A program made the position numbers and the translations under genes. DNA of 20,326 nucleotides. Source: Marinilabiliales bacterium (GTDB taxonomy: Bacteria; Bacteroidota; Bacteroidia; Bacteroidales; BM523). The notes under the pieces were generated by a model. The model saw nothing but the letters and a program-made list of their open reading frames with translations, ran no database searches and was not told where the DNA came from. The stretch is from the NCBI GenBank assembly GCA_002869425.1, contig PKSZ01000396.1, forward strand, positions 1 through 20,326. The letters run 5' to 3'. Below, piece after piece: positions 19,351 through 20,106 of the stretch (position 1 is its first letter; every line of letters starts with the position of its first letter).

Positions 19351-19923
19351 TTACATCTGAAACAAAAAATTTGAAATCACTTCACGACCATATTCAGTAA
19401 GTATAGATTCCGGGTGATATTGAACACCACACACTGGCAAATTACTGTATTGAAGTGCCATTATTTCATCATTTTGGTCTTTACAAAGAACGGAAAGCTC
19501 GTTTGGCAAATCTTCCATTGAAACCACCCAGGAGTGATATCTTGCACCTAAAAACCGATGGGGAACTCCGTTAAACAATATGTGACTGGATTCAGGTAAG
19601 TACATTTCATGCGCAACACCATGAAATACCGTATTCAAATTTTTAAGTTTAGCACCAAAAACTTCTGCAATGGCTTGCATTCCTAAACACACACCAAAAA
19701 TTTTATGACTATGATGACACAAACGAATAATCTCTTTCATTCTACCCTCTTCTTCAGGCAAACCAGGACCGGGAGAAAGAAATATCGTATCAAATTCTTT
19801 TATATATGAAATATCTATGGTATCATTTCGATATACCTCTACACGTATATCCACAATAGATTCAATAAGATGAACAAGATTATACGTAAAAGAATCGTAA
19901 TTATCCAATACCAAAATTTTCAT
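19351..19923 (-). CDS. trpG: Glutamine amidotransferase subunit of anthranilate/aminodeoxychorismate synthase
   Basis: The start is the ATG at 19923, giving 190 residues. An in-frame ATG at 19944 would put seven extra codons in the U-tract of the terminator and is rejected. The class I glutaminase motifs are complete: DNYDSFTYNLVH (7-18), SPGPGLPEEEG (50-60), nucleophile Cys79 in GVCLGMQAIAE, RYHSWVV (128-134) and the His170/Glu172 pair in QYHPES. It supplies ammonia from glutamine to TrpE (anthranilate, to tryptophan) or PabB (4-amino-4-deoxychorismate, to folate). Sequence alone does not separate TrpG from PabA. The Trp-codon leader directly upstream argues for TrpG or a shared subunit. No trpE or pabB is in the window. 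It is the first structural gene of the aroBDAC operon. Confidence 0.9.
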   Translation of the reverse strand: MKILVLDNYDSFTYNLVHLIESIVDIRVEVYRNDTIDISYIKEFDTIFLSPGPGLPEEEGRMKEIIRLCHHSHKIFGVCLGMQAIAEVFGAKLKNLNTVFHGVAHEMYLPESSHILFNGVPHRFLGARYHSWVVSMEDLPNELSVLCKDQNDEIMALQYSNLPVCGVQYHPESILTEYGREVISNFLFQM

Positions 19924-19930
19924 CTTGCAA

Positions 19931-19971
19931 TAATAATAAAACAAAACGGCCTATCTTTCGATAAGCCGTTT
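19931..19971 (-). terminator. Attenuator terminator upstream of trpG
   Basis: Read on the minus strand, AAACGGCUUAUC (19971-19960) pairs over twelve positions with GAUAGGCCGUUU (19955-19944), including one U·G pair, and is closed by a GAAA tetraloop (19959-19956). A U-rich tail, UUGUUUUAUUAUUA, follows and ends just before the trpG ATG at 19923. On the plus strand no T-run follows, so the terminator acts on leftward transcription. It lies between the trp leader peptide and trpG. Confidence 0.88.
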
Positions 19972-19998
19972 CAACTTGCTAATTACAATAAAATTTTA

Positions 19999-20028
19999 GC
20001 GTTTCAAAACACATGGCTTTGAGAACGC
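19999..20028 (-). promoter_or_regulatory. Leader hairpin adjoining the Trp codons (pause/alternative hairpin)
   Basis: On the minus strand GCGUUCUCAAA (20028-20018) pairs with UUUGAAACGC (20008-19999) in a 10-bp stem with one bulged C. The 5' arm starts at the last base of the third Trp codon and the 3' arm contains the leader stop codon. The terminator's 5' arm region repeats the sequence UUGAAACG, so the same 5' arm could pair there instead. That would be a possible antiterminator, but this is inference. Confidence 0.6.
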
Positions 20029-20039
20029 CACCACCACAT
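20004..20039 (-). CDS. trpL: Trp leader peptide (11 residues, MWWWRSQSHVF)
   Basis: The minus strand reads ATG, three consecutive TGG codons, CGT TCT CAA AGC CAT GTG TTT, then TGA. Three Trp in eleven residues, directly after the start codon, is the hallmark of a trp leader peptide whose translation senses charged tRNA-Trp. It begins about 33 nt after the predicted transcription start, is followed by a hairpin and then by a strong terminator, and precedes trpG. It is too short for routine gene calling. The gene symbol is used by analogy with E. coli trpL and the sequences are unrelated apart from the Trp codons. Other short frames across the same DNA lack any amino-acid bias that fits the downstream genes. 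Confidence 0.85.
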   Translation of the reverse strand: MWWWRSQSHVF

Positions 20040-20053
20040 TGTTGTGAACAATT

Positions 20054-20069
20054 ATTGTCCGTCGACAAT
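20054..20069. repeat. Inverted repeat at the 5' end of the trp leader RNA
   Basis: ATTGTC (20054-20059) and GACAAT (20064-20069) are exact reverse complements around CGTC. The repeat lies just downstream of the predicted start of the leader transcript. It could be a 5' stabilising hairpin or an operator. No regulator is identified. Confidence 0.5.
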
Positions 20070-20075
20070 GCATTA

Positions 20076-20106
20076 CAAAGATATTATTTTAAAGCAATTA
20101 TTAAAA
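20076..20106 (-). promoter_or_regulatory. Promoter of the trp leader/trpG-aroBDAC operon
   Basis: On the minus strand TATCTTTG (20083-20076) is a perfect TAnnTTTG -7 element, with TTTT (20106-20103) as a weak -33 box across a 19-base spacer. Transcription would start near 20072, giving a 5' untranslated stretch of roughly 33 nt before the leader peptide. Confidence 0.65.

Follow-up and report, generated by a model that had tools for sequence, protein, structure and literature searches.

A leader on the minus strand just upstream of trpG, in the 20,326-nucleotide stretch of DNA analysed here in full (the window), is most probably a trpL-class, ribosome-mediated transcription attenuator that would set transcription of a trpG-aroB-aroD-aroA-aroC gene cluster through tandem Trp codons. 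Sequence and computation together establish the parts of this element, their mutually exclusive pairings, a homologous leader on an aro operon of a second genome (G001) and similar leaders at trp genes of Bacteroidota; we infer from them that tryptophan level alters read-through and that the five genes form one transcript.

Leader architecture and the operon behind it

A promoter element, a leader ORF, a protector hairpin and a terminator follow one another on the minus strand from 20083 to 19938, and trpG starts at 19923. An earlier note on this DNA had described these parts, and all of them were found in place, including the start of trpG 20 bases past the terminator, with some corrections of detail. 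The -7 element of the promoter, TATCTTTG (20083-20076), fits TAnnTTTG, the Bacteroidota promoter consensus; the -33 box is weak, being just TTTT at a 19-nt spacing. The leader ORF (20039-20004) reads ATG TGG TGG TGG CGT TCT CAA AGC CAT GTG TTT TGA and encodes the 11-codon peptide MWWWRSQSHVF, with the three TGG codons right after the ATG as reported (codons 2-4, 20036-20028), the TGA stop at 20006-20004 and an in-frame TTG 12 bases 5' of the ATG as a possible alternative start. The protector hairpin (segments 1:2, 20030-20016 with 20010-19997) does begin in the third Trp codon, but it measures 14 bp with one bulge rather than 10 bp, and the intrinsic terminator (19972-19938) carries the expected GAAA loop and U-rich tail on a 13-bp stem (19972-19960/19955-19943) rather than a 12-bp one. 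An outer stem, ACAAUG..UAUUGU (20042-19985), is predicted to join the start-codon region to 19985-19990 when the RNA is not translated, and a similar stem is also predicted in the G001 leader. The 133-nt leader as a whole folds at -47.4 kcal/mol (z = -6.1), and none of 200 dinucleotide shuffles was equally stable. With both strands counted, the window contains a single ATG..TGGTGG..stop ORF with a terminator after it, namely the trpG leader. Among the traits that define the trpL class, at least two adjacent Trp codons in a short ORF, a protector overlapping the control codons and an intrinsic terminator before the first structural gene are seen directly; the required antiterminator, incompatible with protector and terminator alike and formed when the ribosome stalls, was obtained by computation.

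The genes downstream, all on the minus strand, do not make up a trp operon but are trpG and four shikimate genes. The trpG/pabA-type glutamine amidotransferase gene (19923-19351; TIGR00566, 158 bits, cutoff 121) is followed by aroB for 3-dehydroquinate synthase (19279-18251; TIGR01357, 334 bits, cutoff 305), aroD for a type I 3-dehydroquinate dehydratase (18270-17635; best match 111.6 bits, below curated cutoffs), aroA for EPSP synthase (17738-16401; TIGR01356, 321 bits, cutoff 287) and aroC for chorismate synthase (16404-15427; TIGR00033, 343 bits, cutoff 212). The true aroA start is probably internal to its ORF. The operon possibly ends with a further gene, a phospholipase D-like ORF abutting the aroC end (15427-14915, minus strand) that weakly matches the DISARM protein DrmC (29.9 bits, cutoff 133).

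AroB was matched in 107 of 119 genomes (106 besides the window's own), and the possibility that the trpG-aro arrangement is a common one was rejected after inspection of 29 other AroB loci, in which trpG adjoins aroB once. That case is a cluster of trpG, aroB and aroD from a different family of the order (G065, contig C35; L163 2289-1711, minus strand); it has no Trp leader, and the 900 bases 5' of its trpG contain neither TGGTGG nor a match to the leader model (models R1 and R2 are described below). The suggestion of a leader at other aroB operons was likewise dropped, G001 being the sole case among the same 29 loci with an R1 match directly ahead of aroB (29.7 bits); in another of these loci (L169), two R1 matches weaker than that of G001 lie ~1.4 kb upstream of aroB. 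AroB, AroD, AroA and AroC were absent from the fetched flanks of loci L002-L110 and L112.

Antiterminator folding and the proposed switch

The antiterminator pairing, which the earlier note had found not obvious, is now identified as a predicted structure spanning 20019-19963 of the minus strand, in which AAGCC (20019-20015) pairs with GGCUU (19967-19963), GUUUUGA (20010-20004) with UUGAAAC (19974-19968) and GCUAA (20000-19996) with UUAGC (19982-19978). It was obtained with a ribosome modelled over the Trp codons, that is, with the sequence before 20027, 20024 or 20021 withheld and the terminator 3' arm absent, at -12.2 to -12.6 kcal/mol; the energy weakened to -10.4 and -7.3 when the first free base was 20018 and 20015, respectively, and the structure was gone at 20009. 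Ensemble folding with and without a ribosome on the Trp codons, the comparison outlined in the earlier note, was also carried out, the stalled state being defined by the second Trp codon in the A site with 12 nt covered. For the terminator 5' arm, pairing with upstream sequence came to 0.73 when the ribosome was stalled, 0.07 when it had reached the stop codon and 0.01 when the RNA was untranslated, and the stalled value exceeded the shuffled mean of 0.38, with 1 of 30 shuffles as high. Trp leader, protector, antiterminator and terminator thereby make up a consistent predicted three-state switch, which supports the trpL-type reading originally proposed.

The same calculation across the 61 leaders described below gave pairing values of 0.59 when stalled, 0.21 after the stop codon and 0.33 when untranslated, against 0.42 for shuffled controls. 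Stalled pairing was higher than after-stop pairing in 55 of the 61 and higher than untranslated pairing in 55 of the 61, and in 30 of the 61 at most a tenth of 30 shuffles matched it. An RNAduplex test run before the ensemble folding was weak, ranking the leader's own terminator arm in the top 5% against the arms of other loci in 5/61 and placing the leader above shuffled leaders at the 5% level in 16/61. The predicted antiterminator thus has support in the window and in the 61 leaders taken together, but not in each locus singly.

Once the complete terminator is available, the fold of lowest energy retains it even in the stalled state, which counts against the attenuator reading and means that the switch would have to be kinetic, with the antiterminator forming first. 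Switches of the trpL class usually need the antiterminator to form first. In such a scheme, plentiful charged tRNA-Trp would let the ribosome pass the WWW run to the TGA and cover segment 2, the terminator would form and transcription would stop near 19938. With Trp-tRNA in short supply the ribosome would wait at codons 2-4 and cover segment 1, segment 2 would then pair with the terminator 5' arm, and polymerase would continue into the operon. An untranslated leader would form the 1:2 hairpin, with termination as the default outcome.

The sister leader and the tryptophan genes

G001, the only same-family genome among those searched, has an aroB-aroD operon (C394) preceded by a homologous leader (L191 1695-1783), which aligns to that of the window with a score of 154, whereas 200 shuffles averaged 94.5 (sd 6.8) and reached at most 122. 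The two are alike in stems and terminator: the G001 leader retains GGCGUUUCGA..UUGAAACGCU, CGCUUAA:UUAAGCG and the terminator, and with them the protector and the antiterminator. They differ in the genes that follow, the G001 terminator ending ~190 bases before aroB with no trpG in between, and in the leader ORF, which in G001 reads ATG TAA TGG TGG CGT TTC GAA GAG TAA; because codon 2 is a stop, the Trp codons are not read from the leader ATG, and this counts against the attenuator reading. Trp codons are conserved in 60 of 80 distant trpG loci and their reading is broken by a TAA in one same-family genome. Loss of the TGG run or of the terminator in close relatives had been named in the earlier note as grounds for refuting an attenuator; in G001 the Trp reading is lost, while the stems and terminator are kept. 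Judged from these two genomes, the leader appears to belong to the aro operon of this family and to have lost Trp sensing in G001.

The tryptophan genes of the window's own genome (G000, an 83.2%-complete assembly in 751 contigs) also weigh on the question. No match to PF04715, PF00425, PF00591 or PF00218 was found in it and PF00290 was matched below cutoff only; at this completeness (83%), TrpE, TrpD and TrpC are without a match and TrpA is seen below cutoff only. This counts against the attenuator reading, since the reason for Trp control of the operon is then not evident. A trpB gene is present on contig C456 (TIGR00263, 544 bits, cutoff 392) and is preceded by a Trp leader of its own, MKNKTNKYWWQKFLFN, plus terminator (L152 16943-16838, minus strand). 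In G001 (94% complete) neither IGPS nor an above-cutoff TrpA was seen, and its single chorismate-binding protein scores best as pabB (315.5 bits, cutoff 328.4) compared to trpE_most (268.6 bits, cutoff 517.7). Missing IGPS is no proof of a lost pathway, however, because two other genomes, G007 and G044, have trpE preceded by a Trp leader although no IGPS match was seen in them. The combination of a Trp leader with missing IGPS has a parallel in G016 (98% complete, no IGPS match), where the leader precedes trpG-trpB (L154 4100-4234, contig C6). Either the de novo Trp genes of G000 lie on missing contigs, or the lineage takes up indole or Trp and employs trpG as pabA.

These observations bear most on the possibility that the leader is the remnant of a once-working Trp attenuator in a lineage that has lost Trp synthesis, with the window copy intact-looking and drifting, G001 already without Trp reading and the terminator now giving a fixed read-through. 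The gene content of G001 (neither IGPS nor TrpA over cutoff, a lone chorismate-binding protein closest to PabB), the TAA at codon 2 of its leader and the lack of TrpE, TrpD and TrpC matches and of TrpA over cutoff in G000 all fit such a history. However, the window retains its WWW run together with a mutually consistent protector, antiterminator and terminator, the trpB gene of G000 keeps a separate Trp leader, G000 is just 83% complete, and the absence of IGPS proves little in view of G007 and G044; we therefore regard loss of function as improbable, though it is the strongest of the competing explanations. It is conceivable, if rather unlikely, that the Trp-sensing device of this family has been wired to the shikimate operon in cells that no longer make Trp from chorismate, so that Trp supply would serve as a proxy for general amino-acid supply. 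On that reading, and judging by predicted folds, a ribosome on the AUG-UAA to which the G001 leader ORF has shrunk would cover segment 1, hold the antiterminator and lock the operon on, with the RNA fold kept.

Similar leaders in Bacteroidota and comparison with known systems

A TrpG search of genome contigs yielded at least 578 loci, the best 80 of which form the set of named trpG loci; all carry titles of Bacteroidota taxa except L085, which is titled Proteobacteria bacterium and carries no such leader. To be scored as a leader, an ATG..TGGTGG..stop ORF had to have, no more than 130 bases beyond it, a terminator at -10 kcal/mol or lower. Comparison of the regions upstream of trpG, as envisaged in the earlier note, revealed a Trp-run leader with terminator in 60 of the 80 loci in the sense orientation and in 0 of 80 in antisense; trpE follows within 160 nt of the terminator in 53 of the 60, and trpB and then trpE in the remaining 7. 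In the wider set L001-L110 the leader was found in 61 of 110 loci, and among the 30 of these with flanks of 1500 bases or less (many filled by trpE) only the window's own gave a leader. A looser scan that allowed GTG and TTG starts produced one antisense match (L077), a few sense ORFs that arose by chance outside trp leaders, and GTG-start WWW leaders in L039 and L101 that fall outside the stricter 60/80 count. The first Trp residue is number 2 in the window leader and number 8 or later in the other 60, a difference that counts against the attenuator reading. The exact leader pattern, searched in 393 genomes of the order, matches the window alone. ATGTGGTGGTGG by itself was discarded as a marker because it is too common (26/60 genomes vs 24/60 for a reversed control pattern, hand count).

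Two covariance models were built with the terminator as their sole paired structure, R1 from 35 of the 61 leaders, window included, and R2 from the other 34, window excluded. The hold-out model R2 found the window leader at 55.6 bits (E = 9e-13 in 64 kb). R1 matched at 40 bits or more in 32 of 60 genomes (window's own included), namely in 21 of 23 genomes with IGPS (TrpC) compared to 11 of 37 without (Fisher P = 3e-6). Matches of 40-47 bits are unspecific for Trp, a His leader of G000 scoring 43.4 bits, which counts against the attenuator reading. The best R1 locus was retrieved from each of 30 genomes: trpE follows in 15 of them, a trp-operon-type trpB in 7, a trpB-like gene with no trpE at the locus in 6 and trpG-trpB in one (G016), the last being the window. 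Two candidate matches in G000 were set aside, one at the 3' end of a long ORF without a Trp run (C715) and one that, considered as a Trp leader, proved to be a His leader before hisG (C456:3267); near a match of 46.5 bits in G005 (C73), no WW ORF was found in the 7 kb fetched.

The Trp-run leaders at trpE and trpB share with the window a WWW leader, a stop codon and a terminator, often with a GGCUURUC-type stem. They differ in position, 28 of the 30 fetched model-match loci preceding trpE or trpB and the window alone preceding trpG-aro. This kind of leader is common in Bacteroidota, and because it is so widespread, only the placement before a shikimate operon is unusual. In G007 two tandem WWW leaders stand before trpE (C131; L157 3427-3208, minus strand). 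Leaders for other amino acids occur as well. Ahead of hisG-hisD-hisC, G000 has tandem His leaders (HHHH), MINITAHTSHHHHNIG and MKRIQLHHHHKMNLRKK, both with a terminator after them (C456; L152 3389-3150, minus strand), and in G001 a leader of alternating Phe/Tyr codons, MKNINKFYFYIHHPAT, with a terminator, precedes a prephenate dehydratase gene (C705; L192 2364-2510), whose product scores 181 bits, under the cutoff of 219. Given these His and Phe/Tyr leaders in G000 and G001, leader-peptide attenuation looks like a habit of this group.

That the hairpins simply end the transcript of the upstream gene, with a chance Trp ORF nearby and an operon that leaks constitutively, is very unlikely: terminators are common and an unrelated ORF upstream does end at ~20164, but the promoter element sits between that ORF and the leader, the same architecture recurs at trpG loci in 60/80 sense and 0/80 antisense cases, the hold-out model recognizes the window at 55.6 bits, and G001 has a homologous leader. 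Least probable of all is control of the same terminator by a T-box, TRAP or riboswitch, which would suit the stems and terminator that G001 keeps without a readable Trp run; a scan of the window against 4227 Rfam models, T-box and other leader families included, gave no match at the gathering cutoff, and the leader (134 nt) contains 2 (G/U)AG triplets, compared to the about 11 closely spaced (G/U)AG repeats of TRAP sites.

Within the phylum, the main text of a transcript-mapping report on Flavobacterium psychrophilum describes strong clues of leader-peptide attenuation upstream of amino-acid operons (PMC9723704); the general mechanism is alike, and the words 'trp' and 'tryptophan' are absent from that main text. 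For Bacteroides thetaiotaomicron, short ORFs reminiscent of leader peptides are mentioned (PMC7366714), and leader genes are treated generally in a further article (PMC4833913). Within the partial coverage of the open-licence literature, we found no report of a Trp attenuator on an aroB operon or on Bacteroidota trp operons. With the window, leader-peptide attenuation in Bacteroidota would extend past the trp genes to the shared shikimate pathway; the homologous pair of leaders, one with readable Trp codons and one with a stop at codon 2, would allow a direct test of lost amino-acid sensing. There is also a gap in annotation, as Trp-run leaders precede trpE or trpB in 60 of the 80 named loci and that of the window reaches no Rfam gathering score.

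Ribosome-mediated attenuators of the trpL type are found in Proteobacteria and Actinobacteria, as in the case of E. coli trpL. The window leader has in common with them a short tandem-Trp ORF, alternative 1:2, 2:3 and 3:4 stems, a U-tailed terminator and aromatic genes downstream, and it differs from them in its Bacteroidota-type promoter, in the position of its Trp codons (2-4), in lacking an Rfam match at gathering score, and in standing before trpG and four shikimate genes.
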